DNA of 64,000 nt, taken from a virus. Positions within the stretch are counted from its first letter, which is position 1. Each line of letters begins with the position of its first letter. The position numbers were made by a program, and so were the translations under genes. The notes beneath the pieces are model-generated. The model saw nothing but the letters and a program-made list of their open reading frames with translations, had not been told where the DNA came from and did not search any database. This document shows positions 36,185 through 58,890 of the stretch, one piece after another. The stretch is taken from positions 1 to 64,000 of IMG/VR virus record IMGVR_UViG_3300032083_003484. One strand, 5' to 3'.

Positions 36185-37150
36185 TTATAATTCCTTTTCC
36201 CAGCGATCGATCATATCATCTAATAGCGTTTCAAATGTGTACTCTGGCTTCCAGCCCAGCACGTTTTTTACTTTTGAAGGATCCCCCTTAAGGTATTTTA
36301 GCTCTTCAGGACGCATGTAAATCGGGTTCTGAACAATATGATCTTCGTAATTTAATCCAAGTTTTGAAAATACAACTTCACACAAATCTCTTACAGAGTG
36401 TGTTTCGCCGGTCGCAACAATAAACTCATCAGGAGTATCATGGTTAAGGATCATGTGCATAGCTCTCACATAATCTTTTGAGTGCCCCCAGTCTCTATAA
36501 GAATCCATGTTTCCTAGCTCTAGTTTATCTTGTAACCCTTTCTTAATTGCAACAGCGCCCTTAACAACTTTGTTGGTTACAAAATTTGAACCCCTTCTTG
36601 GGGATTCGTGATTGAAAAGAACTCCGTTGCAAGCGTGAAGTCCATATGCGTGCCTATAATGCCTAACAAGATTATAGCCCATTACCTTTGCACACCCATA
36701 TGGACTAACCGGGTTCATTGGTGTTGTGAGTCTTTGTGTCCCGTCTTCATCAACAGAGTTGCCAAACATCTCTGAAGAAGATGCCTGATAGAATTTTGCT
36801 TCTGGGCATGTTGTTCTATATACTTCCAACATGTTCAAGACGCCTAGAGCGTTTGTTTGTATTGTAAATGATGGCATATCAAAACTGATTCTAACATGAC
36901 TCATTGCGCCAAGGTTATATATTTCATCCGGCTGGACTTCATTAACTATTCTTACCAAAGAAGGGTAGTCTAACAAGTCACCATAGTACGTATTGATGTT
37001 TTTTGTTATATGATTTATTCTGGAATCTTGGTTTTCGGCTACCGAATGCCTTCTTATCATCCCATAGACCTCATAATCATTATCCAATAAATATTCCGCC
37101 AGGTAGCTGCCATCCTGGCCTCCTACGCCGGTTATTAATGCCTTTTTCAT
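36185..37150 (-). CDS. gmd: GDP-mannose 4,6-dehydratase
   Basis: A protein of 321 residues of the short-chain dehydratase family. The Rossmann motif TGVGGQDGSYLAEYLL at the N-terminus, the RRHS segment and the FYQASSSEMFG and SPYGCAKVMGYNL blocks (catalytic S/T, E, Y-x3-K) are those of Gmd. It converts GDP-mannose to GDP-4-keto-6-deoxymannose, the precursor of GDP-fucose, GDP-rhamnose and perosamine. The fucosyltransferase-like gene at 41.2 kb is a plausible downstream user. The length is a little shorter than bacterial Gmd (about 345-370). Strong SD AAAGGAGA upstream. Confidence 0.9.
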   Translation of the reverse strand: MKKALITGVGGQDGSYLAEYLLDNDYEVYGMIRRHSVAENQDSRINHITKNINTYYGDLLDYPSLVRIVNEVQPDEIYNLGAMSHVRISFDMPSFTIQTNALGVLNMLEVYRTTCPEAKFYQASSSEMFGNSVDEDGTQRLTTPMNPVSPYGCAKVMGYNLVRHYRHAYGLHACNGVLFNHESPRRGSNFVTNKVVKGAVAIKKGLQDKLELGNMDSYRDWGHSKDYVRAMHMILNHDTPDEFIVATGETHSVRDLCEVVFSKLGLNYEDHIVQNPIYMRPEELKYLKGDPSKVKNVLGWKPEYTFETLLDDMIDRWEKEL

Positions 37151-37576
37151 TTAAACATTCTCCTTTGTTTTTATGTATGTTTTATCTTTAATTTGGCCAA
37201 AATATGGCCCATTTTTAAATTCGTATAAAATAGTTCCCTCTTCTAAGACTTTAAAACCATGACCTCCAGAAAACACGATTGCGCAATCGCCCTTTTCTAG
37301 GATCTCTTCATGAACCAAGGTATTATCTAGATCCCAAAACCTTGCTTCAATCGAGCCTGAAAGAATGACCCATGCTTCATTGGTTCCAAAGGTTTCTCGC
37401 CTAATATTATTGTGCTTATGAGGCTCAAAAAGATCATTTTTTGATAAAACCTTCGAAGAAACTTGTAAAAGAGCATCATCAGGAGACAGATCGTTTCTAT
37501 CCGCAACTATATCATCTTTTTTATTAATAATTAATAACAGTTTTTCATTAACTTTTGAATAAATAAACCTAGGCAT
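37151..37576 (-). CDS. WbuC-like cupin protein
   Basis: A protein of 141 residues with the cupin pattern PHKHNNIRRE (metal histidines), ETFGTNEAWVILSGSIEARF and GDCAIVFSGGHGFKVL. This resembles WbuC-type cupins found in O-antigen and fucosamine clusters, whose reaction is not settled. It begins the AT-rich part of the glycan island, starts in an 8-nt overlap with the methyltransferase gene and ends one base before gmd. A role in sugar modification is inferred. Confidence 0.7.
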   Translation of the reverse strand: MPRFIYSKVNEKLLLIINKKDDIVADRNDLSPDDALLQVSSKVLSKNDLFEPHKHNNIRRETFGTNEAWVILSGSIEARFWDLDNTLVHEEILEKGDCAIVFSGGHGFKVLEEGTILYEFKNGPYFGQIKDKTYIKTKENV

Positions 37577-38498
37577 TTACTTTCTCCCAAGCTATAATCG
37601 AATACCCATTTATATACATGCTCCCAATAAAGCTTTCTTTTTCAAAAATAATATTAATTTTTTTCTCTTTTTCTAGCTTGTGCATATAGTTTTTAAAGTT
37701 TTTAAGATAATTTCTTTTTTCAAAATATTTTTTACTTAAAAAATCATATAAGTTTGTATCATCTAAGTATTCACTAATTGGTTCTATGTGAAAACATATT
37801 TTAGGATTATTTTCTAGTAAAAAATTAATAAAATCTTCATATTTATCGCCAATTTGCTCTAAAGCTGCAAAGGTATATACCCCTGAGTCTTTTTCTAGAG
37901 AAAGACCATAATTCGGATTAAAAAAATCAAACTTATTACACTTAAAATCAGTGTTGAAGACTTTGTTAATATTTTCAATCGATTGCTGTGAACTTGTGGC
38001 CCAATCAAGCCCAAAAACATTTGCTTCTGGATTGACTTCGTTAACTCTTAAAAGGTTATGTCCAGTCCCGCAGCCAAATTCATATATATTTGCACAGTTC
38101 TTAATAAATTTTTCGAATATCCAATATTGTAATAAGCTAACTAGATTATATTCCATATCTTTATTGCATGGTTTAATTATTTTTTTATTCCATCTAATAT
38201 ATGGATATTTTCCGAAGTATTTTGGGATTAAAAAATTATGTTTTCTGTGTTTTAGAAACCCTTCAGAATTTTCACTCCAGCCTTTTTCCCAATCTCCTAT
38301 TCGATGCTGTCCGGCACGAGTTACTTCCCCTGTATTTTTGTACAGATATTTTAATATTTCTAATATGACATCATTATTTTCTTCTTTATCTAATTCCATA
38401 TAAGATAAATCAAAATCTTTAATTTTCTCTTTTAGAAAAACAGACAGTTCTTCACCAAGAGAATTTTCAAGATCTTTTTCACAAATTTTATTAATCAT
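37569..38498 (-). CDS. SAM-dependent methyltransferase (class I, 309 aa)
   Basis: A protein of 309 residues. The SAM-binding loop NIYEFGCGTGHNLLRVNEVN near residue 140 and the following VFGLDWATSS strand identify a class I methyltransferase. A long N-terminal region (about 130 residues) with HRKHNFLIPKYFGKYPYIRW precedes it. Sugar methylation is likely from the context. The start codon lies in an 8-nt overlap with the upstream epimerase gene. The base composition is very AT-rich compared with the structural genes. Confidence 0.75.
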   Translation of the reverse strand: MINKICEKDLENSLGEELSVFLKEKIKDFDLSYMELDKEENNDVILEILKYLYKNTGEVTRAGQHRIGDWEKGWSENSEGFLKHRKHNFLIPKYFGKYPYIRWNKKIIKPCNKDMEYNLVSLLQYWIFEKFIKNCANIYEFGCGTGHNLLRVNEVNPEANVFGLDWATSSQQSIENINKVFNTDFKCNKFDFFNPNYGLSLEKDSGVYTFAALEQIGDKYEDFINFLLENNPKICFHIEPISEYLDDTNLYDFLSKKYFEKRNYLKNFKNYMHKLEKEKKINIIFEKESFIGSMYINGYSIIAWEKVNA

Positions 38499-39552
38499 CG
38501 GTTCCTCCTAAGTTAAACCATTTAATTGTCCTTTTAATCCCTTCATCTAAAGATATTATTTCTTTTTCATACTCAGGAAATTCATTTCGAAACCTGTCCA
38601 TGGCCAAACTAACAATTTTTGGCGCCTCTTTTGTGGCTTCTGAAGGAAGCTTATTTTTCTTTATGGCTTCTATATTAAAAAAGCTAGCTACTTTATTGGC
38701 TAATTCATAAATTGTTATTTCCTCAACATCTCCACCTACATTATATACTAATTCTTTTCCATCTGTCAATATATATATTAAAATATAAACACAATTAGTA
38801 ATATAAAGGTAGTTTCTTCTTGAGGCGCCTTCATCTAGTAGATTAATATTTCCATTTTGCGCTTTAAAAAGAAAATCCTGCAGCACCCTTTCATCAGAGA
38901 ATAACGCTCCGGGACCATATGTTAAAGCGACTCTAGCTATTTTTGTTTCAACGTTATTGTTTTCTGCATATTGTTTGCAAAGTATCTCGCCTAGGCGTTT
39001 TGATACGATATAACACGATCGATTGTTCTGTAAGTCGAAAACACCATTATAGCTCTCCGGAGTGGGGACAAAGTCTGTAGGAGGAGTGCCATAGACCTCA
39101 CTAGTACTTAAAAATAAAAATTTTCCACCTTTTTTATCCATGTGCTCTAATATTGATTCAACACCCACTACATTTATCAAGCATGTTGCTATACTATTTT
39201 TTAAAAATTTGGCTGGTTGTCCATAACCAGAACAAAAAAAACAAAAATCAATTTTTTCTGGTATTTTAGAGTGTTCAATTCTTGTTGTACAATCCCATGA
39301 AAAATATTTTGCCGTATTATCTTCTACTATATGTTTAATTCTTTTCAGATTATCTTTTTTACTTTTAGACGTCAAAAAAAGATTAATATTTAAAGAAAAA
39401 CATTTATTAATATAAACAAAAAAATCAGCTAAAAAACCACCAATTAATCCATTTGCCCCAGTGATTAATATATTCGAATTTTTAAATTTTTCAATATTAA
39501 TTTTTTTACTTAAAAAGCTACATTCCTCATATATAACATCATAATTATACAT
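38491..39552 (-). CDS. NAD-dependent epimerase/dehydratase (nucleotide-sugar)
   Basis: A protein of 353 residues of the extended short-chain dehydrogenase family: SNILITGANGLIGGFLADFF (NAD-binding GxxGxxG), FLFLSTSEVYG and RSCYIVSKRLGE (Y-x3-K), and LVYNVGGDVEEITIYELA. It resembles UDP-glucuronate decarboxylase and dTDP-glucose dehydratase subfamilies, but the substrate cannot be read from sequence. It is coupled by 8-nt overlaps to the transketolase gene upstream and the methyltransferase gene downstream. Confidence 0.8.
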   Translation of the reverse strand: MYNYDVIYEECSFLSKKINIEKFKNSNILITGANGLIGGFLADFFVYINKCFSLNINLFLTSKSKKDNLKRIKHIVEDNTAKYFSWDCTTRIEHSKIPEKIDFCFFCSGYGQPAKFLKNSIATCLINVVGVESILEHMDKKGGKFLFLSTSEVYGTPPTDFVPTPESYNGVFDLQNNRSCYIVSKRLGEILCKQYAENNNVETKIARVALTYGPGALFSDERVLQDFLFKAQNGNINLLDEGASRRNYLYITNCVYILIYILTDGKELVYNVGGDVEEITIYELANKVASFFNIEAIKKNKLPSEATKEAPKIVSLAMDRFRNEFPEYEKEIISLDEGIKRTIKWFNLGGTDD

Positions 39553-40417
39553 ACCTTAATTTCTCCTTTGTTAACCCTAAAATTTCTCTGTGTTCGTCAG
39601 CAGTTCCATAGTCTGTACAAAACTTTCTTGGTATACCTGTTTTTTTTAAATTTATTAGCATGTTGTTCCTGGAAGCAATATCGAATATTTTATCTCCCAG
39701 GGCGCCTATTGAAGAATTTTCTTCAACTGATATACAATTATTTTGTTTTTTTAATAAATTAACTATTTTTAGTTCGGTTTCTAATGAAAGCGGTTCTATT
39801 GTTGGTAAATATATAATTATGTTTTGCTTTTCCTTTACTATTTCTAGTGTATGCCCACACGTAAAAATAAGAGGCTTTGTTATATCTCCTTCTATTATAT
39901 GACAGTCATATGGATTAATATCAAAATCTTCTTCATGCATGCTTTTGAATAGTTTAAAGTATTTTGTCTTACCGTTAGACCATGTTTTATTAAAAAGATT
40001 TTTGAATTCTTTTTTATTTCCCGGACAAAATATATCGATATTTGGAAGTGGTCTTAAAATTGATATATCTGAATAACAATGGTGTGTGCATCCCAAGTGA
40101 GCGTAGTCAAACGAGCCACCAACTGTGACTATCGTCACATCCAGCTCTTGATAACATAAATCAATCTTAATTTGCTCATACGCCCTTTCAACACAGAATG
40201 GAGCTATCGTATGTACAACTGGCTTAAAGCCATTGAGAGCCAGGCCGGCGGCGATCCCGATCATGGACTGTTCACAGATCCCAATGTTATAAAATCTATC
40301 TGGGAACCTGCTTTCGAATTCTTTTAATAGAAAATGACTAATATCGCCAATCAAAACTACTAGTTTTTCATCTTCTTCAGCTTTTCTTATTAATATATCT
40401 GCAAATGTTTTACGCAT
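39545..40417 (-). CDS. Transketolase-like C-terminal subunit (pyrimidine-binding and C-terminal domains)
   Basis: A protein of 290 residues corresponding to the second half of transketolase/DXS: FYNIGICEQSMIGIAAGLAL with the catalytic glutamate, then VVHTIAPFCVERAYEQIKID, and a C-terminal domain (NCISVEENSSIGALGDKI). With the adjacent 254-residue subunit it forms a split transketolase, which transfers a two-carbon unit between sugars. Such pairs occur in O-antigen clusters that build branched or unusual sugars. 8-nt overlaps on both sides imply stoichiometric synthesis. The acceptor sugar is unknown. Confidence 0.82.
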   Translation of the reverse strand: MRKTFADILIRKAEEDEKLVVLIGDISHFLLKEFESRFPDRFYNIGICEQSMIGIAAGLALNGFKPVVHTIAPFCVERAYEQIKIDLCYQELDVTIVTVGGSFDYAHLGCTHHCYSDISILRPLPNIDIFCPGNKKEFKNLFNKTWSNGKTKYFKLFKSMHEEDFDINPYDCHIIEGDITKPLIFTCGHTLEIVKEKQNIIIYLPTIEPLSLETELKIVNLLKKQNNCISVEENSSIGALGDKIFDIASRNNMLINLKKTGIPRKFCTDYGTADEHREILGLTKEKLRYV

Positions 40418-41174
40418 CTAACTCCTCAATGAATTTTTCATATTGTTCTTTGTTTGGCGGGCCATGGTGCCAGGAGTGCATGTTGGTTTCCATCTCCTTT
40501 ACCCCTTTTCCCTTTACAGTCTTGCACACCACACAAATAGGTAGGTCTTGCTCTTCCTTGGCGGCGCTTATCGCTTTATTGATATCGGCTATGTTGTGAC
40601 CGTCTAAAACAACTACTACTTTCCACCCAAAAGCTTCGAATTTTTTTTCGATTCTTTTAGTCGGTAAAGATCTGATTTGAGAATTATTTTCATCAATTAT
40701 GCATATTAAGTTGTTTAATTTTAAATTTGCGGCGACCATTGCGGATTCCCAAGTTGTGCCTTCGTTACACTCCCCATCACCAATTAAACAAAAGGTTCTT
40801 TCATCCCTTTGTGATATTTTATTTGCGATCGCAATCCCAACACATATTGGCAGACCATGACCAAGAGAACCGGTTGATGCGTGAATTTTTTTGTGCTTTC
40901 CCCTATGCGGGTGACCACCTAGTATACTATCGAAAGAACCGAATGAAAAAAACTCCTCTTCACTAATTATCCCCATCTCTAAAAACACAGCATAAAGAGC
41001 CAAGCAGCCGTGTCCTTTGCTTAAGATAAATTTTTCTTCATCTTTTATATGATCTTTATAAAGGCAATATATGATCTCTAAAATAGAAAAAGCACTTGGA
41101 ATGTGACCTAGTTGAGTTTCATATGAAACTTTTAAAATTTGTTTTTTTAATTTTTTTATTATCTTATGATCCAT
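40410..41174 (-). CDS. Transketolase-like N-terminal subunit (TPP-binding domain)
   Basis: A protein of 254 residues with the thiamine-diphosphate binding signature GDGECNEGTTWESAMVAANL ending in the NN pair of IIDENNSQ, and the conserved GSLGHGLPICVGIA and FILSKGHGCLALY motifs of transketolase. It supplies the cofactor half of the split enzyme whose other half is encoded immediately downstream. It overlaps the fucosyltransferase-like gene upstream by 11 nt. Confidence 0.85.
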   Translation of the reverse strand: MDHKIIKKLKKQILKVSYETQLGHIPSAFSILEIIYCLYKDHIKDEEKFILSKGHGCLALYAVFLEMGIISEEEFFSFGSFDSILGGHPHRGKHKKIHASTGSLGHGLPICVGIAIANKISQRDERTFCLIGDGECNEGTTWESAMVAANLKLNNLICIIDENNSQIRSLPTKRIEKKFEAFGWKVVVVLDGHNIADINKAISAAKEEQDLPICVVCKTVKGKGVKEMETNMHSWHHGPPNKEQYEKFIEELDA

Positions 41175-42186
41175 ATATCCTGTTTAAGTATGTTATTGCA
41201 CTGTGTGGATTAAAATATGCAGCTGCAGCTGCAACGTTTGAATCTGTACATATTAGACGGTCGCATCTTGACATCAAGACACAATCAATTAAACACTCCT
41301 CTCCGTGTTCCGGGCCAGTTGCAGACGTCAAACATATGGGATCGCTGGAGTTATACTTGCTCATCCTTACGGCGGGACGTGCAATTGTTCTCTTGCGGCC
41401 AAATGCTTTAAATATTTCCGCAATCGCCTCGTTGTTGTCAGATGCAACAAATATTTGACTATCTTTTTCTGTTAATTTTTCTTCGATCATATCTAAGTAT
41501 GCATGCAACGGTAAGGATTTGTGGGGGAATTCCATTTTTTTGTCTGTCCCCCTTACGTGCACAGCTAGAACGTCTTCTTTAAAGAATTTATTATAAAATT
41601 TATTTATTTTGTTTGTTATTTCTTTTTTTATTTTTATATTATTTAATATTATTCTGTTAGCACTTTCCCTGTGTTCTCTCTCTAGTGGCGTTCCTAGTAA
41701 GTCCCATAGAAGGAGCGGTTCATACAAATGAATATTTTTAATTAAAAATTTATTTTGCATGTTATAATCTAGCTCTCCTGCCATGAATATGTCAGATACA
41801 TCATGATTAGCGGCGAGCGCATCTTTAACACTATAACTATTTAATGGCTCAAAATAATATTCCCATGGGTTTAAAGAGTTATTCCAACCATCTTTTGACC
41901 AGTAAAGACACTGACAGTGTTTCATCCCAGGAGTGTTGTTGTAGGATGCGGGCGCTGAATCTGTTAGAAAATTGTTTTTGTCTAAAACGCTTGGGTCTTT
42001 AGTGTTCCTATACTCTATGGTACCTGAGCGGCCGTGATTAGAGTCTCTTCGACCCGGCCCCCAACGGACAACAGGAATATAGTTATTATCTTCTGCCCAC
42101 TTAATATTATCAATTGTATGTAAAAATATAGAAAAAAGACCATATGGTCTTGAATCAATAATCAAGAATTTTTTATTCATTTTCAT
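41164..42186 (-). CDS. Fucosyltransferase-like glycosyltransferase (340 aa)
   Basis: A protein of 340 residues. The motif VLAVHVRGTDKKMEFPHKSL near residue 210 and the later DCVLMSRCDRLICTDSNVAA follow the alpha-1,6-fucosyltransferase/NodZ/O-fucosyltransferase pattern, in which an HxRxTD loop contacts GDP-fucose. With gmd in the same operon, GDP-6-deoxyhexose is a plausible donor. It overlaps both neighbours. The donor and acceptor are inferred, not shown. Confidence 0.68.
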   Translation of the reverse strand: MKMNKKFLIIDSRPYGLFSIFLHTIDNIKWAEDNNYIPVVRWGPGRRDSNHGRSGTIEYRNTKDPSVLDKNNFLTDSAPASYNNTPGMKHCQCLYWSKDGWNNSLNPWEYYFEPLNSYSVKDALAANHDVSDIFMAGELDYNMQNKFLIKNIHLYEPLLLWDLLGTPLEREHRESANRIILNNIKIKKEITNKINKFYNKFFKEDVLAVHVRGTDKKMEFPHKSLPLHAYLDMIEEKLTEKDSQIFVASDNNEAIAEIFKAFGRKRTIARPAVRMSKYNSSDPICLTSATGPEHGEECLIDCVLMSRCDRLICTDSNVAAAAAYFNPHSAITYLNRIYGS

Positions 42187-43819
42187 TAATGTTAAAGTGT
42201 TTCTTGTACGTATTGTAATTTTTTAAACCAAAAACGTTTTTATATTTATTAAATATCTTTGATTCTTCTTTTAATTTTTCATGAAAATTTTCTTTTGCTG
42301 TAGATAAACCATTTACGTTGTAGTAGTACAAGCCAAGTACCTGTTGTATTTTCTTAAACTTCGATCCGCTTTGTGTGCAGCGCAGCCACATTTCCCAATC
42401 TCCCGCAAAGTTTAATTTTGTATCAAATAACCCATTTTTTTCACTCATTGTTTTTCTCCACATCGGGAGCGGTCCCGGAAGACACTTAATCATGTTTTCT
42501 TTCGAATATTCTAACACCGAGTGCTCATAGAGTTTGTTGAACGAGCTGTTATTTAAATATGTTTCATTTTTTATATTTGTTTGATAAGAATCAGCATAAA
42601 CTAAATCAATTGTGTCGTCAACACTTAAATTTTTTGCCATTATCTCTAAAGAGTTATAAGCTCTGGTGTCGTCGACGTTCCACAAGGTAAGATAATCACC
42701 TGTCGATTTTTTAATCCCCAAGTTCATTGTTTCGTGCACATTTAAAGTTTTATTTAGTTTTTTATAAAATATATTATCATGCTTTTTAATGTATTTTTCT
42801 ATTATTTCAAATTCTTTATCCGGCGAATTAGCATCAAATATTAATAACTCACATTTATCAAATATGGTCTGTTTGACCACTTCTGACATAAAATGCTCTA
42901 TGTACTCTCCCCCTTTGTATAGGGAAGTTATTATTGAAATCTTAGGAATATATATCGATTTTATAAATTGAACTTTTTTATCTTGAATAACGTTTATAAA
43001 TTTTGAAATTGTTTCATTTTTCTTATTTTCAATAAAATTTATTAAATCTAATCCTTTCAGATCACCAAACCAGGGTTCACTAGTGGCTCCTACTAATTTA
43101 TTGGTGACAATTGTGCACCCCAGTATACGTGCCTCTATTGCAACCCGGCTAAAACTTTCAAGCCACTCGGGGAAAAAATATAACTTTTCGGCGGTGGCTA
43201 GCTCTTTTATAAAAGTCTCATATTTGGACGGCTGTATAAATTCAAATTCAATATTATTTTTCTTACAATATTGAACTGTTCTATCCATTCCTTTATTTTT
43301 GTTTTTTGTATACAATATTACATTTTTTTTTGTTTTTTTAATATTAATAGATTTTTTTAATAGTTCTATATTATCATTTGACCATAAATTGCACCCTAAA
43401 TTTACAACATGGTTTATTAAAAGATTTTTTTGTAAGACTTCTGCATGGATCTTACTTTGACAAAAAACTGCTTTTGCATTTTCAAAAAAATCTTTGTTTA
43501 TAATAAATCTCGAAGGCGCTAGCATGTTTAAAAACTTAGAAGGATCATTTGTTGAAACATACTTATGATCGTGCTCTAAGATAATATATTTTGTATTTTT
43601 AAGTAAATTTAAATTATTTTTACTTAAATTCATAAAATTTGAAATTATATAAAATTTATCATCTCTAATGTGAGCCGGCGTCAATAAATGACAATTAATT
43701 TTTTCAAGCTTGCATCCTTCTGATACTAGGCATTTAATGAGTTCATCATTAAATGCCTCTGCGCCCCCCGAGATCCCTTGTTCGGCAAAGAAATCAGATA
43801 CAAAAACAACATCATGCAT
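42173..43819 (-). CDS. Bifunctional glycosyltransferase (GT4-like + GT2)
   Basis: A protein of 548 residues made of two halves. Residues 1-290 form a GT-B-like transferase (GGAEAFNDEL near the N-terminus; FPEWLESFSRVAIEARILGC, the nucleotide-sugar glutamate block). Residues about 295-540 form a GT-A/GT2 transferase (KISIITSLYKGGEYIEHFM; LTLWNVDDTRA with a DD metal motif; FAGDWEMWLRC). The fusion could add two consecutive sugars. The coding sequence is among the most AT-rich of the window. Overlaps of 8-14 nt with both neighbours. Confidence 0.78.
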   Translation of the reverse strand: MHDVVFVSDFFAEQGISGGAEAFNDELIKCLVSEGCKLEKINCHLLTPAHIRDDKFYIISNFMNLSKNNLNLLKNTKYIILEHDHKYVSTNDPSKFLNMLAPSRFIINKDFFENAKAVFCQSKIHAEVLQKNLLINHVVNLGCNLWSNDNIELLKKSINIKKTKKNVILYTKNKNKGMDRTVQYCKKNNIEFEFIQPSKYETFIKELATAEKLYFFPEWLESFSRVAIEARILGCTIVTNKLVGATSEPWFGDLKGLDLINFIENKKNETISKFINVIQDKKVQFIKSIYIPKISIITSLYKGGEYIEHFMSEVVKQTIFDKCELLIFDANSPDKEFEIIEKYIKKHDNIFYKKLNKTLNVHETMNLGIKKSTGDYLTLWNVDDTRAYNSLEIMAKNLSVDDTIDLVYADSYQTNIKNETYLNNSSFNKLYEHSVLEYSKENMIKCLPGPLPMWRKTMSEKNGLFDTKLNFAGDWEMWLRCTQSGSKFKKIQQVLGLYYYNVNGLSTAKENFHEKLKEESKIFNKYKNVFGLKNYNTYKKHFNINENE

Positions 43820-45101
43820 ATTCTTTTATTTCTTGTATGTTGTCAGACCATGTCTCCCAGTTAATTAATTCTGTCTTATCAACAACATTATCGATTATTT
43901 TCTCAAATACTTCTTCTTCGTTTGGCCATTCTTTCTCAAGCCATTCTGCTAACTGGGTTGCTTTCTTTTGCATTGCGCCGTGATTCTCCATCATCGAGCG
44001 CATCTTCATCTTAAATGAGCCTTCCTTTGGAAAACACCACATAGAATCAGGAATGATAACTTTATCCCATACAACTTCTTTCTGGACGTGGCGAAGTTCA
44101 TAATCTACCTTAAGTGGAATGAACTTGTTTTTTCCCTTTACAGGCATCGTCAAGAAGTCGGTGTGCCCTGACCAAGCCGGTGCGATGATAGGAAGGCCTG
44201 CTTGTGCTGCCTCGAATAGCGGAAGCCCATAACCTTCACCATGAGTTGTTGTGATAAAGGCGTGAATGTCCTTGTGTCGATAAAGGAGCGCCATCTCCTC
44301 TTCTGTCATATAGCCATGAAGAAGATATACCTTACATTTCTTTTCTTTGTAATCTTCGTGATCTAGAAGAACCTTGATTCTCTCAATACAATGAACCCGA
44401 TCGATCTCGCAGTTCTTTGCTAGGTTGGTCTTTAGAACTAAGCCAACATTTTCACGATCGAAGTTTTCTTCGATAAACCATTTGACTAGGTTCTCTAGAT
44501 TCTTTCGTGGTCCCCATTGGGCAACTGAAAGAAAGTTAAAGTCTGTTTCAAAAGAGATTTGGTTTTCAATTGACTCTGGGCTGTCTTTAAATTCCCAATC
44601 TTTTCTTGGATAAGGAATAACTTCAATGGGTGTTTCGTTTTTGTAGCCCTTGACGATTTCTCCAGTTTGTTGGTTTTGTGCGTCATAAGAGGTTTCGTCA
44701 AAAGCATAACGAGCAAACTGAGAAGGAACAATGATTTTATCCATCATATTTGCCTTCTCAATCCATTCTCCCGCAATCTTTGTGGTTTCAATACCTGCGG
44801 TGACGCCAATGTTGATCGGGGCCATACGCTCCCATTCAAGAGGTATTGTGACCTGTATTGAGACGTCTGGCTGAGGCATTTGCTTTTGTTGCATTAGCAT
44901 AGCTGTCTTTTGAACGAGCGAGTCAAGCCATGCTCGCTCCTCATCGTCTTCAAAGATCCAGTTTGTCGCACCCCAACTGGTTGAAAGAAGGTAAAGATCT
45001 AGATCTTCCTCTCTTGAACGAAGTGAACGAAGAACCAAGCGTGTGTGTTCTCCATAGCCTGATTGTGATAGCGCTGGGCCTCTAACTAATACCTTTTTCA
45101 T
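43812..45101 (-). CDS. Glycosyltransferase, GT4-like (429 aa)
   Basis: A protein of 429 residues with the GT-B glycosyltransferase pattern: GPALSQSGYGEHTRLVLRSL at the N-terminus, a FLSVAQWGPRKNLENLVKWF linker region and the C-terminal HGEGYGLPLFEAAQAGLPII donor-binding block. Likely a retaining transferase for the phage-encoded glycan. The composition returns here to that of the structural genes, so this gene and the next may belong to an older layer than the AT-rich cassette downstream. It ends in an 8-nt overlap with the bifunctional enzyme. Confidence 0.82.
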   Translation of the reverse strand: MKKVLVRGPALSQSGYGEHTRLVLRSLRSREEDLDLYLLSTSWGATNWIFEDDEERAWLDSLVQKTAMLMQQKQMPQPDVSIQVTIPLEWERMAPINIGVTAGIETTKIAGEWIEKANMMDKIIVPSQFARYAFDETSYDAQNQQTGEIVKGYKNETPIEVIPYPRKDWEFKDSPESIENQISFETDFNFLSVAQWGPRKNLENLVKWFIEENFDRENVGLVLKTNLAKNCEIDRVHCIERIKVLLDHEDYKEKKCKVYLLHGYMTEEEMALLYRHKDIHAFITTTHGEGYGLPLFEAAQAGLPIIAPAWSGHTDFLTMPVKGKNKFIPLKVDYELRHVQKEVVWDKVIIPDSMWCFPKEGSFKMKMRSMMENHGAMQKKATQLAEWLEKEWPNEEEVFEKIIDNVVDKTELINWETWSDNIQEIKEYA

Positions 45102-46360
45102 ACTACCTCCTCAAATGTCCAAGTTGAATGATTTTTTCTGCTTTCCCAAGATCCATAACGATTATGAATGTCTTCTAGGAGTGTTGGCCATTTATCACAA
45201 AAGTCTTTAAAGTTATAGTTCTTTTGCACGTGCTCTCGACCAGCTTCGCCAAGTGCGTTTCGCTCTTCTTCGGGCATTTCCATAATCTTCGTGAGAGCCT
45301 CTATAAAGTCTTCCTTGTTGAGACGGTCCTCATAGATGTAAGGAATGTCTTGAGAGCCTATGATGGCCTTTGAGGACGGTTCTAGGCCTATTCCAAACCA
45401 GTTCTCACCATCAGTTACTTGTTCTTGGAGCCCACCGGTCATATTTACAATGATTGGGGTTCCACAAGAAAGAGACTCAAGGGTTGCTAGACCAAAACCT
45501 TCAGCATCTGAAATGTTGAGGGTGCAATCAACCATATTGTAAATGTTCGCAAGAATCTGCGGTGGATACTTTTGCTTTGAAAAGAATACTTGGCCATCTT
45601 CGTGCATATCAAGTTTCTTTGCAATTGCTTCTAGGTCTTGACCGTTTGGATCTTTTGGTTCTGTATGCATAATAAGAGTTGCCTTGTCCTTTCCAACTCT
45701 TTCCAAAAACTCTTTAAACCAAAATAGCAGGGTTCCTGACTGCTTTCGTCGTGCGTTTCGGTTGTTCCAAAAGAATACAAACTTTTCGTGGGACTCTCCT
45801 AGTTGTTCTTTCCTAAGATCTGATGTAGCTTCTGTTGGCATTGGCTTGAAGATGTCGCCATCAACTGCGTGTGGAACATAGTGAGATTCAACATCCGGCG
45901 CAACTTCTCGAACAATAGCATCTGTAACCTTTGAGATTGAACAAATAACATCATTTGAGTTATAAAACTTTTCATTGTAATAGGGAGCTGGGAAGTTGTC
46001 CCATACGTGATAATAAACCATCGGCATTTGAGAACGGATCTCGTCTTCCATTTCCCAAAGCCACCCAAAGAAACGTGGATCTGTCATAAACCACAAAAGG
46101 TCCGGTCGATGATTTCTCATAATCGACCGGACCACATCAGGCGTTCCAAACCCGTCAATCGGGTAAATGACCCAATCATCGCCCCATTCCTCTGTCTTGA
46201 TGGGGTCGTATTTTGGATGTTTTATAGCACCACCAAGCGAAATAACTTGGTACTTTCCTGTTTTCAGAAGGGATTCTATTACATACTTTGTTTGAGTGCC
46301 AACACCAGACGGGGAAAGAGGCATGTCTGATATTGTTAGAATCTTAATCTTGTCTGTCAT
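45098..46360 (-). CDS. Glycosyltransferase family 4-like (420 aa)
   Basis: I place the start at the ATG at 46358-46360, because GAGGTAAA precedes it and the nuclease stop ends one base before; an in-frame start 12 codons earlier would lie inside the nuclease gene. The product shows MPLSPSGVGTQTKYVIESLL at the N-terminus, FFWNNRNARRKQSGTLLFWF in the middle and ISDAEGFGLATLESLSCGTP as the GT4 donor site. It overlaps the next transferase by 4 nt (ATGA). The substrate is unknown. Confidence 0.82.
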   Translation of the reverse strand: MTDKIKILTISDMPLSPSGVGTQTKYVIESLLKTGKYQVISLGGAIKHPKYDPIKTEEWGDDWVIYPIDGFGTPDVVRSIMRNHRPDLLWFMTDPRFFGWLWEMEDEIRSQMPMVYYHVWDNFPAPYYNEKFYNSNDVICSISKVTDAIVREVAPDVESHYVPHAVDGDIFKPMPTEATSDLRKEQLGESHEKFVFFWNNRNARRKQSGTLLFWFKEFLERVGKDKATLIMHTEPKDPNGQDLEAIAKKLDMHEDGQVFFSKQKYPPQILANIYNMVDCTLNISDAEGFGLATLESLSCGTPIIVNMTGGLQEQVTDGENWFGIGLEPSSKAIIGSQDIPYIYEDRLNKEDFIEALTKIMEMPEEERNALGEAGREHVQKNYNFKDFCDKWPTLLEDIHNRYGSWESRKNHSTWTFEEVV

Positions 46361-46361
46361 T

Positions 46362-47165
46362 TTACCTCGGGCAATGTTTTGTATGTTTGAATTCACAATA
46401 AGTGCAATTCATTCTATTCTTAAAGTATAACTGTTTGTGAATATTATAAACTGCTTTTTTTGTAAAGTCAAGAGCATTTTCAACTTTTTTTTGCCCTGAA
46501 GTGATTTTAAATATTTCTACCCTATTTTTCTTTGCTGTTCTTTTAAGAAGCGCAAAGTGACATTCAACGTCTTTTAGTGGAATGCCGTATTTCTTAGCAT
46601 AAAAATACTTGTAAAGAACTAACTGGTAGTTCGTCATCTTGCTACTTTTCTTTTCTGCTTTCCATCCCCAAGAACAAGTTTTGTAATCTAGAATGTGAAT
46701 CTTGCCATCTGAAGTCTTGATAATAAGATCGATAAAACCTTTGAAAGAAAAGTTATAATCAATTCCTAGATCTTCTTTACAGTCTTCATAAAGAGAGTAC
46801 TCTACAGCAACTAACTCAAACTTGCCGAATTCGATGCGAAGAGCGGGTAAAATAAGCTCAACAAGGTCTTCACCCTGTGCTTTCATCTGTTCTACGAGCA
46901 TTTCATCGTATTCTACACCATCTTTTTGGAGTTGGTTGATTTGTTTTGTAAAATCTTTTTGGAAATAAGAAATAGGGTCTTCTATATTCTCCAAAAGCAA
47001 CTGTTCCGCTGTGTTGTGAACAGCGGAACCAAAAGCGGTATGGGCAGAGCCCTTGAAACCAGCAATGTCGTCGACGTATACTAACTTGTGATACCAAGGG
47101 CATTTATGCCAATTGGAAAGTTCGGAAAAAGAAATATGTGGTTTATGTAGCTTCGGCTCGGTCAT
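46362..47165 (-). CDS. PD-(D/E)XK nuclease (RecB/Cas4-like, 267 aa)
   Basis: A protein of 267 residues. The N-terminal HISFSELSNWHKCPWYHKLV, the GSAVHNTAEQLL helix and IHILDYKTCSWG near residue 157 give the PDDEXK_1 core (catalytic D and K). The C-terminus has CTYC and a later HC pair, like the cysteines that bind an iron-sulphur cluster in AddB and Cas4. A single N-terminal cysteine in the HKCPWY segment could be the fourth ligand. Its role could be DNA end processing or recombination. It is coupled to the downstream glycosyltransferase and overlaps the metallopeptidase-like gene by 23 nt. Confidence 0.8.
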   Translation of the reverse strand: MTEPKLHKPHISFSELSNWHKCPWYHKLVYVDDIAGFKGSAHTAFGSAVHNTAEQLLLENIEDPISYFQKDFTKQINQLQKDGVEYDEMLVEQMKAQGEDLVELILPALRIEFGKFELVAVEYSLYEDCKEDLGIDYNFSFKGFIDLIIKTSDGKIHILDYKTCSWGWKAEKKSSKMTNYQLVLYKYFYAKKYGIPLKDVECHFALLKRTAKKNRVEIFKITSGQKKVENALDFTKKAVYNIHKQLYFKNRMNCTYCEFKHTKHCPR

Positions 47166-48065: not shown

Positions 48066-49376
48066 TTATAAGATCTTGGATGCTAGAGTAGCAATCTTGG
48101 ATCGCTCACCTCTAACAAGTGTGACGTGGCCGGAGATTTCGTACTCCTTGAACTTCTCAACTGCGTAAGCAAGTCCGTTTGACGTCTCGTCAGTATAGTC
48201 ATTATCGATTTGCTCAATGTCTCCGGTGAGAACAATCTTTGTATTATTTCCAACACGTGTAATAATAGTTTTTATTTCATGCATTGTCAAGTTTTGTGCT
48301 TCATCAATAATAATGTAAGCGTTGTTTATTGAACGACCACGAATGTAAGTAAGTGCTTCAATCTCAATAATTCCTCGCTCTTGGAACATCTTAAAATTTT
48401 CCTTGCCTGAGAGCAGGGTTTCTAAGTTGTCCTGAACGGGGGCTAGCCAGGGAAGCATCTTTTCTTCTAGCGTACCTGGAAGGAAGCCAATGTCCTTACC
48501 CATAGGAGTTACGGGACGTGATACAATAAGTTTGTCGTATTCTTCCTTCTCTAAGACTAGCTCCAACCCAGCAGCAATTGCGGTCAAGGTTTTGCCAGTT
48601 CCTGCTTTTCCGATAAGGCTTACCAAACTAATGCTGTCATCTAAAAGTAAGTTTATAGCAAATGCTTGCTCTTTGTTTCTTGGAGACAGAGTGTTAAATA
48701 CCTTTACACGCTCGCCTGAACGAACTTTTCGCAAAGGGGATGACGGTCTAATATATCTTGCTAGCGCAGTCTTTTTATCGTTAGCATTGGAAACCAACAT
48801 CAAGAACTGACTTGGGTAATAAGCTTCATCTACAAAGATTTCTTCACCGGCATAAAACCGATCAACAACTTCATCATCAACCAAAACTGATGAGAAGCCT
48901 GTGTAAAGTTCGCTTGTGTCTTTTACGACCTTTGAGCGAATATAGTCTTCACACAGGAGACCAAGAGAGTCGCACTTGACTCGCATGTTGATGTCCCTGG
49001 AGACCATGACATGCTTTCTCCGTGGGTTGGCGGCTCGCTCTTGGAAAGCGCAGCAAATGATCTCATTGTCTGGATCTTTTAATTGAATGTCCGGACAGTC
49101 TGCTAGATTTTCAGGATCTAACTGAACTGCTTTTAAAATTCCTAAACCTTTTCCTAAACGAACTCCTTTATAAAGAGATCCTTTTTCTCGCAAACTGTCT
49201 AAAATGCGGATTGTTTCTCTGGCATTTCTGCCAACACCATCTTGCCTTTTCTTGTGTTTATCTAACTCTTCTAGGACCTTAAAGGGTAATAAAATATCGT
49301 TATTCTCAAACGCATAAAGCGAATCCGGATGTGTCAAAGGTACATTCGTATCTAGAACATAAGTTTTTTTTGCCAT
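48066..49376 (-). CDS. phoH: PIN-PhoH ATPase (PhoH2-like, 436 aa)
   Basis: A protein of 436 residues. An N-terminal PIN ribonuclease domain (YVLDTNVPLTHPDSL; ELDKHKK; KDPDNEIICC; VSRDINMRVKC, with acidic residues at the expected places) is fused to a PhoH ATPase: Walker A GKAGTGKT near residue 257, SRPVTPMGKDIGFLPG, Walker B AYIIIDEAQN near residue 353 and VLTGDIEQID. PhoH2 proteins are RNA helicase/RNases. phoH genes are frequent in marine phages and may affect RNA turnover. A strong AAAGGAGA ribosome site precedes the ATG. Confidence 0.9.
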   Translation of the reverse strand: MAKKTYVLDTNVPLTHPDSLYAFENNDILLPFKVLEELDKHKKRQDGVGRNARETIRILDSLREKGSLYKGVRLGKGLGILKAVQLDPENLADCPDIQLKDPDNEIICCAFQERAANPRRKHVMVSRDINMRVKCDSLGLLCEDYIRSKVVKDTSELYTGFSSVLVDDEVVDRFYAGEEIFVDEAYYPSQFLMLVSNANDKKTALARYIRPSSPLRKVRSGERVKVFNTLSPRNKEQAFAINLLLDDSISLVSLIGKAGTGKTLTAIAAGLELVLEKEEYDKLIVSRPVTPMGKDIGFLPGTLEEKMLPWLAPVQDNLETLLSGKENFKMFQERGIIEIEALTYIRGRSINNAYIIIDEAQNLTMHEIKTIITRVGNNTKIVLTGDIEQIDNDYTDETSNGLAYAVEKFKEYEISGHVTLVRGERSKIATLASKIL

Positions 49377-51109: not shown

Positions 51110-51125
51110 TTTTCTCCTTATTTAG

Positions 51126-51180
51126 TAGACCCACCAGGACTTGAACCTGGAACCAATCGTTTATGAGACGTATGATTTAA
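51126..51180 (-). pseudogene. Truncated tRNA with CAT anticodon (3' half)
   Basis: The minus strand has a CTCATAA anticodon loop (anticodon at 51163-51165), a perfect T-arm CCAGG TTCAAGT CCTGG, then TGGGTCT and A as acceptor 3' strand and discriminator. The 5' acceptor strand and the D-arm are missing: the sequence upstream is an AT-rich stretch that runs straight into the intact tRNA at 51187. Only three pairs of the anticodon stem remain. It resembles the 3' half of the neighbouring tRNA(CAT), so it is probably a degraded duplicate. Confidence 0.7.
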
Positions 51181-51186
51181 TATTAA

Positions 51187-51260
51187 TGGGCGCAGAGGGA
51201 CTTGAACCCCCATTGGATCGTTTATGAGACGACGGCATTAACCAATTATGCTATACGCCC
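51187..51260 (-). tRNA. trnI-CAT: tRNA with CAT anticodon, probably tRNA-Ile2 (lysidine-modified)
   Basis: A complete cloverleaf on the minus strand: acceptor GGGCGTA/TGCGCCC, D-arm GCAT...ATGC, anticodon arm GTCGT CTCATAA ACGAT, T-arm GGGGG TTCAAGT CCCTC, discriminator A. The CAT anticodon fits tRNA-Met or tRNA-Ile2. The T-loop TTCAAGT is that of bacterial tRNA-Ile2, and the next gene upstream is a TilS-like lysidine synthase, which acts only on tRNA-Ile2. So Ile2 is favoured, elongator Met is not excluded. CCA is not encoded. Confidence 0.88.
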
Positions 51261-51323: not shown

Positions 51324-51935
51324 TTATAACTCATTGTATAAGCTTTTTACTTTTTTTGCAACAACTTTTTGTATGCCTGGGTTGATTTTCTTAATTTCTG
51401 GAATAATAACGTTTCGGATTCTGTTTCTTGCGAAAGCATTATCATTATTAGATCTATCCTCAATCCAAGGCATTTCTTTTTTATCACACCATTTGATCAA
51501 CTTTTCTTTTTTTGTCAAAAGGAAAGGACGTATAACATTACCCCTCCTGTATGGTGTGATTTTTGCTTTTCCGTGTAGTGAAGAAAAAACATAAAATTCA
51601 ACAACATCATCCAAGTGGTGACCTGTGATGATTGGCTTGTCGCTAAATTCATCAAAGAATTTATATCTTTGATCTCGCCAGAACTCCTCTTGAGAGGCTC
51701 CAGGAGGCTTCACAGCGCCAAGGAAGCCGGTGTGAAGGGTAAGGGTGCGGTTTTCACAGAAACGTCTTAGAAAGGCTTCTGCTTCGTTTGACGTTGGGGT
51801 GTTGTGATTAAAGAAAAGCACCTCAACGTCATTTGATGGGTTGTTTGAGATAAAACTCAAGGCCGCCATAGAGTCAACGCCGCCAGAACAGGCAACATAA
51901 GATACTCTTGGGATGTTTCCAAGTAGTTGAATCAT
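51324..51935 (-). CDS. tilS: TilS-like tRNA(Ile)-lysidine synthase (catalytic domain only)
   Basis: A protein of 203 residues of the PP-loop ATPase family: CSGGVDSMAALSF (SGGVDS at 17-22), EVLFFNHNTP, EEFWRDQRYKFF and GHHLDDVVE, followed by RPFLLTKKEKLIKWC and WIEDRSNND. This is the order of TilS, which converts C34 of tRNA-Ile2 to lysidine so that it reads AUA and is charged with Ile. Bacterial TilS is often longer (E. coli 432 aa); here the C-terminal tRNA-binding domains are absent. A sigma-70-like promoter lies directly upstream with its -10 box 6 nt from the ATG, and no ribosome site is seen. The tRNA(CAT) gene follows 63 nt downstream. Confidence 0.82.
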   Translation of the reverse strand: MIQLLGNIPRVSYVACSGGVDSMAALSFISNNPSNDVEVLFFNHNTPTSNEAEAFLRRFCENRTLTLHTGFLGAVKPPGASQEEFWRDQRYKFFDEFSDKPIITGHHLDDVVEFYVFSSLHGKAKITPYRRGNVIRPFLLTKKEKLIKWCDKKEMPWIEDRSNNDNAFARNRIRNVIIPEIKKINPGIQKVVAKKVKSLYNEL

Positions 51936-52011: not shown

Positions 52012-52040
52012 AAGAGCCAATAATAAAACTTACTGCTCTT
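52012..52040 (-). terminator. Weak hairpin followed by a pyrimidine run after the 109-aa membrane gene
   Basis: AAGAGC and GCTCTT pair across a 17-nt loop on the minus strand, followed by TTTTCTTC. The stem is short and the loop large. The position, at the stop codon of the membrane gene and before the tilS promoter, fits an inefficient terminator that separates the two units. Confidence 0.3.
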
Positions 52041-52368
52041 ATATAACTCCAGCTGCGTGTAGACTTACCGTTACTATGTTCCATGTTACTGTTGCTACGT
52101 AGGCCGTGATCAAGAAATACCATACCCATTTTTTTGAAAGTTTATCTTTTTTAACCCAGCGATCGTACTCAACCAACAAGGCGTGTTGCATAACAAAGAT
52201 TTTAAACATAGCAAAGGAGATTACTGAATTCTCTAAAAAGTATCCCATTACTGGATTAACTTCTTCGGCAAAGCCTCCTTCTACAGCAAAAATTGTTATG
52301 CATAGATCTAAAAGGTTTAAAATAACTAGTGCTTTTAGAAATTTATCATGTGGGTGTTTTTCAATCAT
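52039..52368 (-). CDS. Membrane protein, DUF5658-like (109 aa)
   Basis: A protein of 109 residues with three predicted transmembrane helices (KALVILNLLDLCITIFAVEG; VISFAMFKIFVMQHALLV; WVWYFLITAYVATVTWNIVT). The LLDLCITIFAVEGG and EVNPVMGYFLE segments match the pattern of DUF5658 membrane proteins. The ATG begins 4 nt after the mature 3' end of tmRNA, with no room for a ribosome site outside the tmRNA itself, so its translation must depend on unprocessed transcript or a leaderless end. Function unknown. Confidence 0.65.
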   Translation of the reverse strand: MIEKHPHDKFLKALVILNLLDLCITIFAVEGGFAEEVNPVMGYFLENSVISFAMFKIFVMQHALLVEYDRWVKKDKLSKKWVWYFLITAYVATVTWNIVTVSLHAAGVI

Positions 52369-52371
52369 TAG

Positions 52372-52679
52372 TGGAGATGTGGGGAGTCGAACCCCAGTCC
52401 TTAAAACTTAAAATCAATCGTCATTCACAAAATTAGTTAGTCAACCACCCGACTAACAAGCCACCTCGTACAACGAGGGTATCTACATTAAATAGAAACA
52501 AATTAACAAAAAAGCAACTTTGGATAACAAGGCAGTTGCCGCCCCCTGATTATGCTGCTAACGCAACAGAGTCAAATTCAACGTTATTGTTGGCAATTAT
52601 TTTTTTTCTGGTTTTCGTATGTCCAGCCAAGCTTTTGCACGATTTATTTTTTATTCCAAGTCGAAGCCAGTGCATCCCC
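52372..52679 (-). ncRNA. ssrA: tmRNA (ssrA), complete
   Basis: A 308-nt minus-strand RNA. The ends form the tRNA-like domain: 5' GGGGATG pairs with 3' CATCTCC followed by discriminator A, the 5' part has the TGGCTTCGAC element, and the 3' part has the T-arm CTGGG GTTCGAC TCCCC-type sequence with TTCGACT. CCA is only partly encoded (one C). In between come the tag reading frame ending in GCGTTAGCAGCATAA and several GC-rich inverted segments (such as GTTAGTC...GACTAAC) that fit pseudoknots. tmRNA with SmpB frees stalled ribosomes and tags the product for ClpXP-type proteases. It lies flush between two genes. Confidence 0.93.
52550..52594 (-). other. tmRNA tag reading frame: ANNNVEFDSVALAA-stop
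   Basis: From a GCC resume codon (52592-52594) 14 codons read ANNNVEFDSVALAA and end with TAA. The AN start and the ALAA end are the standard features of bacterial SsrA tags; the C-terminal LAA is what ClpX and ClpA recognise. The resume codon is inferred from this pattern and not from structure. Confidence 0.85.
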
Positions 52680-53006
52680 TTATTTTCTAAGGCTATTTTC
52701 TAGCCGGTTTAGGTGTATAGTGTCTATCCCTAAAAACAAAGCTGTTTCTTGTTGGGATGAACAAACAGATTTGGCATACTTTACTAATGCCTCTATAGTT
52801 ATTTTTTTTATTGATCTTGCTAAACTTAGGCCGTACATCTTGCCATTTATCTTGTGGCTCAAAGACTCAAGCTTGATTGCTATAATGTCTTCTAGTGGCA
52901 GGTTTGATATACGAACTAAGAATCTATCGTCAATCAAATTTTCTTCTTTAAGATTTTTTATGATTGAGTATTTAGATTTTTTTATTTTACTTTTTGTTTT
53001 TCTCAA
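52680..53006 (-). CDS. Small basic protein with Fis-type helix-turn-helix-like C-terminus (108 aa)
   Basis: A basic 108-residue protein (KTKSKIKKSKYSIIKNLKEE at the N-terminus). The C-terminal QQETALFLGIDTIHLNRLEN segment has the spacing of a Fis/NtrC-type helix-turn-helix (A-x3-LGI-x6-L-x2-L). It may be a DNA- or RNA-binding regulator. The stop codon ends at the base before the 5' end of tmRNA, so both share a transcript. The HTH call is from pattern only. Confidence 0.55.
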   Translation of the reverse strand: MRKTKSKIKKSKYSIIKNLKEENLIDDRFLVRISNLPLEDIIAIKLESLSHKINGKMYGLSLARSIKKITIEALVKYAKSVCSSQQETALFLGIDTIHLNRLENSLRK

Positions 53007-57438: not shown

Positions 57439-57968
57439 TAGATACAGATCTGTTCGCTAATTCTATCACTATTGCGAGTTACTGCTTCCGATAGTAGATC
57501 AGCACGTCTAATGATCCGACGAGCATAAGCTCTAGATCTAGGTGTGCACTGATTTCCAGCATTATAATGACAGAGAGGATCAGCCCACTCTTGTTGGTGA
57601 TCTACAGAGAAAAGCTGGAACGGCTCTGTTGAGATCGATCTAGAAAACCTATAATGAAAATCTTTTACCGCATTGACTCCATCCTTAATTAAATCACAAT
57701 TCTCCAATCTTCCTTCTTCACAAAAGTATCTAGGATTGATCTGCAATGGTCCGTGGCAACAACCTGTGTAAGAAACAACTCCTTTTTGAAGTCTAGATTC
57801 TTCCCAGGCTACCGATACAGCAATTAGGGGTGAAACATTTCTAGCAATTGCTTCACTAGCAATCACCTCACAAGTATTAAACCTTTCAGGGTTCAGGACA
57901 TGATCTGGAGTGTTTAGTACTCCAGCAGTAAAAAGGATATAGCAAATCCCATAGCTTAACTTAACCAT
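57438..57968 (-). CDS. Lytic transglycosylase-like protein (SLT domain, 176 aa)
   Basis: A protein of 176 residues with a hydrophobic N-terminus (LSYGICYILFTAGVLNTP) that may be a signal peptide. VSPLIAVSVAWEESRLQKGV gives the catalytic glutamate and CCHGPLQINPRYF the downstream G-x2-Q-I-x-P pattern of goose-type/SLT lytic transglycosylases. It would cleave peptidoglycan, either as an endolysin or as a periplasmic enzyme for entry. Eight cysteines are present, suggesting disulphides outside the cytoplasm. 8-nt overlap with uvsE. Confidence 0.75.
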   Translation of the reverse strand: MVKLSYGICYILFTAGVLNTPDHVLNPERFNTCEVIASEAIARNVSPLIAVSVAWEESRLQKGVVSYTGCCHGPLQINPRYFCEEGRLENCDLIKDGVNAVKDFHYRFSRSISTEPFQLFSVDHQQEWADPLCHYNAGNQCTPRSRAYARRIIRRADLLSEAVTRNSDRISEQICI

Positions 57969-58890
57969 TGATAATCTCCGTTTTGTATTTAATAACTGCT
58001 AGTTCTTTAGCCTTAGCTTCTACCATAATATGCATATTGTTATTATAGTTATTAATAGTATTATATATATAGTTAGAATGTTTCTCTTCTCTAATCTTAA
58101 TATTGTTCTGTTCTTCTCTAGCTGACTCTGAGTAATGTACCACAGGGGTGATATCCCCCCAGGTCGACAAAGCTAGTTCTAGCGCATCTTGTTCAGACTG
58201 ACCTCCTGTACAAAGCTTGTGATGGTGGTAATCAAAAACAATAGGGATCCCAGTTTGTTCATGAACCCCTTCGTAAAGATCTTTTGTTGAGTAGAGAGAA
58301 ACCTTATCATCATTTTCCACCGTTAGTCTTGATCTAACTGCTGGAGAAAGTTTGTTTACATTCTCACAAAACGTTTTCAGAGCACTTGGCTTGTCTCCAT
58401 AAGCAGCACCAACGTGAATGTTGATTTTAGCCCAGTGATCTCTTGGGAGACCCATCAAATCCATAACCTTGCCGTGAATCTCCAAATCAGTAATGGTGTT
58501 TTGGACTACACGCTCTTTAGGTGAGGCCAACTTGTTGAAAGGCCCAGGGTGGTATGTAAGTCTATGGTTGTGCTTTTTAGCAAAGTCACCAACTTCTTTT
58601 AGCTTCTTAGAGATCTCCTTGATGTCCGGCATATCATCAATGTTGTAATGAGATGCCCAAGGAAACATGTTAGAACTCATTCGAAAAAACTTTACATTGT
58701 TTTGCTCATTCCACTTGACAATCTCAAGCAGGTCTGTTATATTTAGTAGAGTTAGTTGAGAGGCATAATGGATACCCTTCGCATCAAAAGTTTTTTTAAT
58801 CATTGTTCTGTTAGTAGTGATGCGTTGACTCTTAGGTCGTTCACTGAAACCCATGTTAATGCAAGCGTAGCCGATATAGTCGCTATTCAT
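57961..58890 (-). CDS. uvsE: UV damage endonuclease (UvdE/UvsE family)
   Basis: A protein of 309 residues of the UVDE family, TIM-barrel fold: IGYACINMGF at the N-terminus, KFFRMSSNMFPWASHYNID, RLTYHPGPFNKLASP, INIHVGAAYGDK, RLTVENDDK and PIVFDYHHHKLC, with the His, Glu and Asp metal ligands at the expected positions. The enzyme nicks DNA 5' to UV photoproducts and abasic sites, giving the phage its own repair. A perfect AGGAGG ribosome site precedes the ATG; the GC-rich plus-strand patch begins directly upstream of it. Confidence 0.88.
   Translation of the reverse strand: MNSDYIGYACINMGFSERPKSQRITTNRTMIKKTFDAKGIHYASQLTLLNITDLLEIVKWNEQNNVKFFRMSSNMFPWASHYNIDDMPDIKEISKKLKEVGDFAKKHNHRLTYHPGPFNKLASPKERVVQNTITDLEIHGKVMDLMGLPRDHWAKINIHVGAAYGDKPSALKTFCENVNKLSPAVRSRLTVENDDKVSLYSTKDLYEGVHEQTGIPIVFDYHHHKLCTGGQSEQDALELALSTWGDITPVVHYSESAREEQNNIKIREEKHSNYIYNTINNYNNNMHIMVEAKAKELAVIKYKTEIING

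Follow-up and report, generated by a model that had tools for sequence, protein, structure and literature searches.

A phage tmRNA gene at a locus that alternates between full tmRNA and RNAs of the tRNA-like domain only

Introduction

Transfer-messenger RNA (tmRNA), the product of ssrA, is already known from phages. By 2021 it had been found in 402 of 18,146 phage genomes (PMC9004378), and a list of phage tmRNAs is given in PMC4131195. RNAs that consist of the tRNA-like domain (TLD) only have been reported from phage DS6A and from Mallomonadaceae plastids (PMC4131195, PMC11915505). In these two papers the DS6A RNA is described, citing Mao 2009, as an inhibitor of E. coli tmRNA. Our literature search, which covered few subscription papers, found nothing on a wider phage TLD-only class beyond DS6A and some plastids. 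The ssrA gene also commonly serves as an attachment site (PMC3146451, PMC9004378). Since the first examples came to light, it has been asked why phages should carry a tmRNA.

Here we describe a tmRNA gene in an uncultured phage. The sequence analysed, referred to below as the window, comprises positions 1 to 64,000 of IMG/VR record IMGVR_UViG_3300032083_003484, and the contig is 76.7 kb long. On its own this gene would be an ordinary further example of a phage tmRNA. What is new is that its locus alternates between full and TLD-only forms, and that TLD-only RNAs occur so widely in phages.

Results

A complete one-piece tmRNA in the window

ARAGORN called a tmRNA at 52371-52679 on the minus strand with the tag ANNNVEFDSVALAA*, and Rfam cmscan matched the same gene to RF00023 over model positions 1-374 with 105.1 bits (E 5e-40), well above the gathering score of 47. 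A first-pass annotation, made from the sequence alone, had placed a complete ssrA gene at 52372-52679 on the basis of TTCGAC elements, paired ends and a tag frame ending in ALAA, and had proposed a covariance-model search as the check. These elements are all present, the search returned a significant match, and the left edge of that annotation, 52372, is the discriminator base. The features of the RNA are as follows.

52369..52679, minus strand: tmRNA gene (ssrA), one-piece, 311 nt including the encoded A73-CUA (ARAGORN, Rfam, sequence)
52673..52679, minus strand: acceptor stem, 5' strand GGGGAUG, with G3 at 52677 (Rfam, sequence)
52660..52665, minus strand: UUCGAC of the tRNA-like domain (Rfam, sequence)
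52608..52626, minus strand: PK1 position, a CUGG/CCAG hairpin of 4 bp only (Rfam, PK1 scan, fold)
52550..52594, minus strand: tag frame ANNNVEFDSVALAA plus TAA, coding part 86-130 of the gene (ARAGORN)
52464..52478, minus strand: helix CCUCG UUGUA CGAGG in the 3' pseudoknot region, with a compensatory change in L002/L005 (contig comparison)
52436..52457, minus strand: hairpin GUUAGUC..GACUAAC (sequence, fold)
52380..52396, minus strand: T-arm UGGGG UUCGACU CCCCA, intact (Rfam, sequence)
52373..52379, minus strand: acceptor stem, 3' strand CAUCUCC, with U70 at 52375 (Rfam, sequence)

The acceptor stem has seven base pairs and contains G3.U70, the alanine identity element. The discriminator A73 at 52372 is followed by CUA at 52369-52371, not CCA. 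An encoded CCA is missing from the window group and from L006, L169, L158 and L184, and is retained in most relatives; none of the 3' ends that we read among the window phage's tRNAs encodes one either. Addition of CCA after transcription is ordinary where tRNA genes are without an encoded CCA. Since the CCA is not encoded, function of the window tmRNA would need the host CCA-adding enzyme. The tag frame is intact, follows the resume codon and ends in a ClpX-type degron. The folding check named with the first-pass annotation gave an intact tRNA-like domain and, as a caveat, a PK1 reduced to the 4-bp hairpin. No H-type PK1 could be built in the window tmRNA, and the same scan gave one in most one-piece relatives. 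Hairpins can replace PK1 in E. coli tmRNA. The minimum free energy of the RNA is -82.5 kcal/mol (z -1.87).

Two near-identical contigs, of 169 kb and 155 kb, bear the same RNA and locus. Four differences from the window fall inside the tmRNA, and two of them form one compensatory pair in a single helix (CCUCG..CGAGG to CCUCA..UGAGG), which argues that the RNA is maintained. Diverged relatives were gathered through the neighbouring PhoH2 gene or through tmRNA patterns. The tags of their one-piece tmRNAs include ANNNVEFEYALAA, ANDNVEFDYALAA, ANDNVEFVPAAIAA, ANDADYDLALAA, ANDDFNMEMAA and ANNTAHFESYALAA, among others, and diverged relatives with the same locus preserve the AN...ALAA form (ANNNVEFEYALAA, ANDNVEFDYALAA, ANNTAHFESYALAA and others).

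The phage, its neighbouring genes and the source of the tag

The first-pass annotation had called the phage T4-like. A search of the near-identical 169-kb contig supports this assignment, with a Gp23 major capsid protein at E 6.7e-60. The nearest cultured capsids, at 36-41% identity, belong to Microcystis phage Mel-JY01, Flavobacterium phage immuto and Rhodothermus phage RM378, and comparing the tag with that of enterobacteria, as had been done, was not apt. Three neighbours on the same strand are relevant to the RNA.

52680..53006, minus strand: small ORF with a Fis-like helix-turn-helix (HTH) look by eye; its stop codon abuts G1 of the tmRNA
52039..52368, minus strand: DUF5658 ORF, its ATG (52368) directly after the tmRNA 3' end
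48066..49376, minus strand: PIN-PhoH (PhoH2-like) gene, about 3 kb downstream of the tmRNA and linked to the RNA in relatives

The HTH-like ORF gave no family match, and its homologues precede full tmRNA as well as TLD-only RNA in relatives. Both junctions between the tmRNA and its flanking ORFs are 0 nt, with the upstream TAA ending at 52680. In four relatives (L006, L169, L015 and L184) the HTH ORF enters the tmRNA 5' end by 33-56 nt, so that the opening bases of the tmRNA also serve as codons. Junctions of zero length, or an overlap as in these four, indicate that the RNA is processed from mRNA, and the window tmRNA is probably excised from the transcript of an operon. Once its 3' end was matured, the DUF5658 message would have almost no leader. 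No Shine-Dalgarno sequence was found before the DUF5658 ORF, and given this its start could be misplaced.

No smpB was found in the 76.7-kb contig, which extends to the whole contig what had been noted for the window, or in 25 related records, all metagenomic contigs in which absence is not proof; on this evidence host SmpB must be used. To look for a source of the tag, we searched the genomes of 84,980 bacterial and archaeal species for the tag type AN[DN][DN]VEF[DE]. The pattern matched at 28 sites and ARAGORN called a tmRNA at 0 of the 28 loci, a count to be read knowing that ARAGORN missed the L001 and L004 tmRNAs that Rfam found and that a degenerate bacterial tmRNA could escape too. No bacterial source was found by tag in these genomes, and no host was assigned. 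When the DNA of the window tmRNA was compared with cultured phages, the only similarity was a 35-nt match over the T-arm and acceptor, shared with S-CRM01, where it falls in a permuted tmRNA, and with a fecal contig.

Linkage between tmRNA and phoH is recurrent. In the one-piece lineage the tmRNA lies upstream of PhoH2. Among permuted tmRNAs of viral contigs (L066-L185), phoH precedes the RNA on the same strand by no more than about 4 kb at 16 of 30 testable loci, and follows it within that distance at 0 of 30. The linkage is therefore not specific to the RNA type of the window, as it also holds for permuted tmRNAs with the order reversed; the samples are not independent.

Several other features of these genomes were recorded. 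A protein with a TilS N-terminal domain is encoded at 51324-51935 (minus strand; TIGR02432, 118 bits) and adjoins a tRNA at 51187-51260 (minus strand) with anticodon CAU, probably tRNA-Ile2; AUA makes up 34% of the isoleucine codons in window genes. Pseudomonas jumbo phages, MIJ3 among them, are already known to encode TilS. After the intact tRNA-CAU there is a 3' half-tRNA with a CUCAUAA anticodon loop at 51123-51180 (minus strand), and in L007 a 5' half of tRNA-Lys at 9137-9180 (minus strand) lies ahead of an intact tRNA-Lys. The window also carries a block of sugar-nucleotide and glycosyltransferase genes at 36185-46396 (minus strand), including GDP-mannose dehydratase, an epimerase and a weak fucosyltransferase match, where GC is lower (about 33% over 36-44 kb), and a homologue of the UV-endonuclease UvdE at 57961-58890 (minus strand; 227 bits).

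TLD-only RNAs at the same locus in relatives

Two of the relatives (L023 and L024) gave RF00023 matches that span only 83 nt and comprise a full TLD and a short H2 hairpin, with no mRNA-like domain. The RNA lies about 35-55 nt after a homologue of the HTH ORF and upstream of PhoH2, a position which identifies it as the tmRNA's own locus. The L023 contig also contains Gp23. Five more relatives (L213, L283, L298, L304 and L307) carry a TLD-only RNA after the HTH ORF, making seven in all. The locus thus alternates, within this phage family, between a full tmRNA and a TLD-only RNA of about 82 nt.

In a tree of the HTH protein, at least two changes between full and TLD-only labels are needed. L283, which is TLD-only, and L111, which has a full tmRNA with the tag ANDANYGLALAA, are sisters with 100/99 support, and their DNA is about 74% identical up to the RNA. 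We considered whether the TLD-only form arose by simple deletion within a neighbouring full gene, but the TLDs of L111 and L283 differ too much to favour this, and replacement is equally likely. That relatives have TLD-only versions here shows that supplying rescue is not the sole role of the locus in this phage family.

TLD-only RNAs are widespread in viral contigs

We scanned viral contigs with the pattern TTCGAC-(20-48)-GGAC-NNN-GGTTCGA-N-TCC, for which we estimate a chance expectation of about one match, and obtained at least 120 loci with TLD-only RNAs. The pattern requires no acceptor pairing, though among the matches listed 120 of 122 have at least six of seven acceptor pairs; within those 120, G3.U70 occurs in 119 and A73 in all. 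The listed matches contain 91 unique TLD-only RNAs, every one with G3.U70 (91/91) and A73. Acceptor pairs 4-6 are paired in 91/91 of these, compared with 0.44-0.64 after shuffling, T-stem pairs 1-3 are all paired and H2 pairs 1-2 are paired in 90/90; for acceptor, T-stem and H2 pairs combined, shuffling the partners gives 0.39-0.64. Taken singly, the TLD-only RNAs have weak fold z-scores, and it is covariation, not folding energy, that argues for their reality. With G3.U70 invariant and the other acceptor pairs free to vary, alanine charging appears to be under selection.

When 20 TLD-only records were searched with RF00023, each gave one match above the cut-off, located at the TLD-only RNA (20/20), and no full tmRNA was found in these records; GiJojo, examined separately, agreed. 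The 20 include the complete genomes of the cultured Streptomyces phages LuckySocke, pSt2308 and BRock, in which the TLD-only RNA is unannotated, lies inside a tRNA array and gives no TLD-only call with ARAGORN. Neighbours of several TLD-only RNAs are phage genes, for example large terminase and primase. In 398 genomes of Pseudomonadota and 8 other bacterial genomes (one genome being in both sets) the pattern did not occur.

A weak match to the TLD-only query in Ruegeria phage RpAliso proved to be an ordinary permuted tmRNA. In LR756508.1, a 484-kb uncultured phage, we observed a 112-nt TLD-only-like match at 414804-414915 and a 447-nt tmRNA match at 92434-92880 (L203, L204), and it is possible that this genome carries both RNA forms. 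A 112-kb TLD-only contig (L250) encodes a protein that by eye resembles Ro60/TROVE, which is connected with RNA binding and RNA quality control.

Discussion

The reading we favour, with a probability of roughly three in four, is that the full phage tmRNA rescues ribosomes and tags their products through host factors, and that in relatives the locus has switched to a TLD-only RNA that modulates the same pathway. The sequences show the RNA with its domains and tag frame, its locus, the lack of a detected smpB and the TLD-only alternates; expression, processing, charging, tagging and benefit to the phage are what we infer. The tmRNA would be cotranscribed and then excised from a polycistronic message of HTH ORF, tmRNA and DUF5658. 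Host enzymes would trim it and add CCA, and host AlaRS would charge it with alanine. EF-Tu and host SmpB would bring the charged RNA to ribosomes stalled on truncated mRNA, where the tag ANNNVEFDSVALAA would be added, its ALAA end being expected to send the products to ClpXP-type proteolysis. Ribosome recycling could in this way be sustained for the phage while mRNA is destroyed during infection, the cutting perhaps being done by the linked PIN-PhoH protein or by host toxins. The first-pass annotation had likewise proposed that the phage brings its own rescue and tagging, which the retained identity elements and tag make the best reading; there is no evidence for its further suggestion of a lost or unsuited host tmRNA.

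The TLD-only RNA of the relatives has alanine-charging identity and no tag frame, and so would have to block or bypass the same pathway. We give somewhat better than an even chance to the wider proposal that phages hold two opposed RNA forms, full tmRNA and TLD-only RNA, which replace each other at one locus, the latter being charged with alanine, entering stalled ribosomes with SmpB and blocking or bypassing host trans-translation, and that TLD-only RNAs form a widespread, overlooked class. As to how the TLD-only RNA might act, we lean slightly towards its entering stalled ribosomes and taking over the peptide without a tag frame, rather than serving as a passive SmpB sponge; a G3.U70 that stays fixed while the rest of the acceptor stem varies freely speaks against the sponge.

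It is also conceivable, if unlikely, that the phage tmRNA mainly competes with host tmRNA for SmpB, AlaRS and stalled ribosomes, changing or blunting tagging as TLD-only RNAs may do, so that the different tag is the point. The TLD-only forms at the same locus in relatives and the weak PK1 of the window RNA fit such a competitor, as does the inhibition of E. coli tmRNA by the DS6A RNA described in PMC4131195 and PMC11915505. However, diverged lineages keep a tag frame with a good ClpX-type degron, for which a pure competitor would have no need. Loss of PK1 and of the encoded CCA could instead be taken as signs of a host ssrA that is decaying, or was captured only recently, and does nothing for the phage. 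We consider this highly improbable: the identity elements and tag are intact, a compensatory change has occurred, many diverged phages conserve the locus, the search of species genomes found no bacterial tmRNA with the window's tag type, and the loss of CCA is in keeping with those of the phage's own tRNAs whose 3' ends were read. Hardly credible is an attachment-site remnant, in which a temperate element integrating at ssrA would have carried part of the gene with it. The use of ssrA as a common attachment site (PMC3146451, PMC9004378) lends the idea some appeal, but such remnants hold the 3' piece only, and here the whole gene is present, within an operon of a T4-like genome.

The existence of two forms suggests that phages have two distinct ways of steering this host pathway, and the alternating locus makes it testable whether a phage gains from more or from less trans-translation. 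Being small RNAs, the TLD-only stubs lend themselves to cloning and assay in laboratory strains.

In having a complete phage tmRNA with its own tag, the window resembles the mycobacteriophage Bxz1 group, Bacillus phage G and the Streptomyces BE phages. Unlike these known cases, its phage is an uncultured T4-like one, its tag type was not found in the bacterial species genomes searched, its CCA is not encoded, there is no spacer to the flanking ORFs and PK1 is weak. Methylophilales phage Melnitz and other marine myophages carry permuted two-piece tmRNAs, which share with it a T4-like myophage background and, often, a nearby phoH on the same strand; the window RNA differs in being one-piece and in lying upstream, not downstream, of phoH. 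The TLD-only, or 'CDS-less', tmRNAs of DS6A and plastids have the same architecture as the TLD-only RNAs of the relatives and of many viral contigs, whereas the window itself has a full tmRNA. In contrast to the DS6A and plastid cases, the TLD-only RNAs described here are far more widespread than those found in the literature, and they alternate with full tmRNA at one locus.
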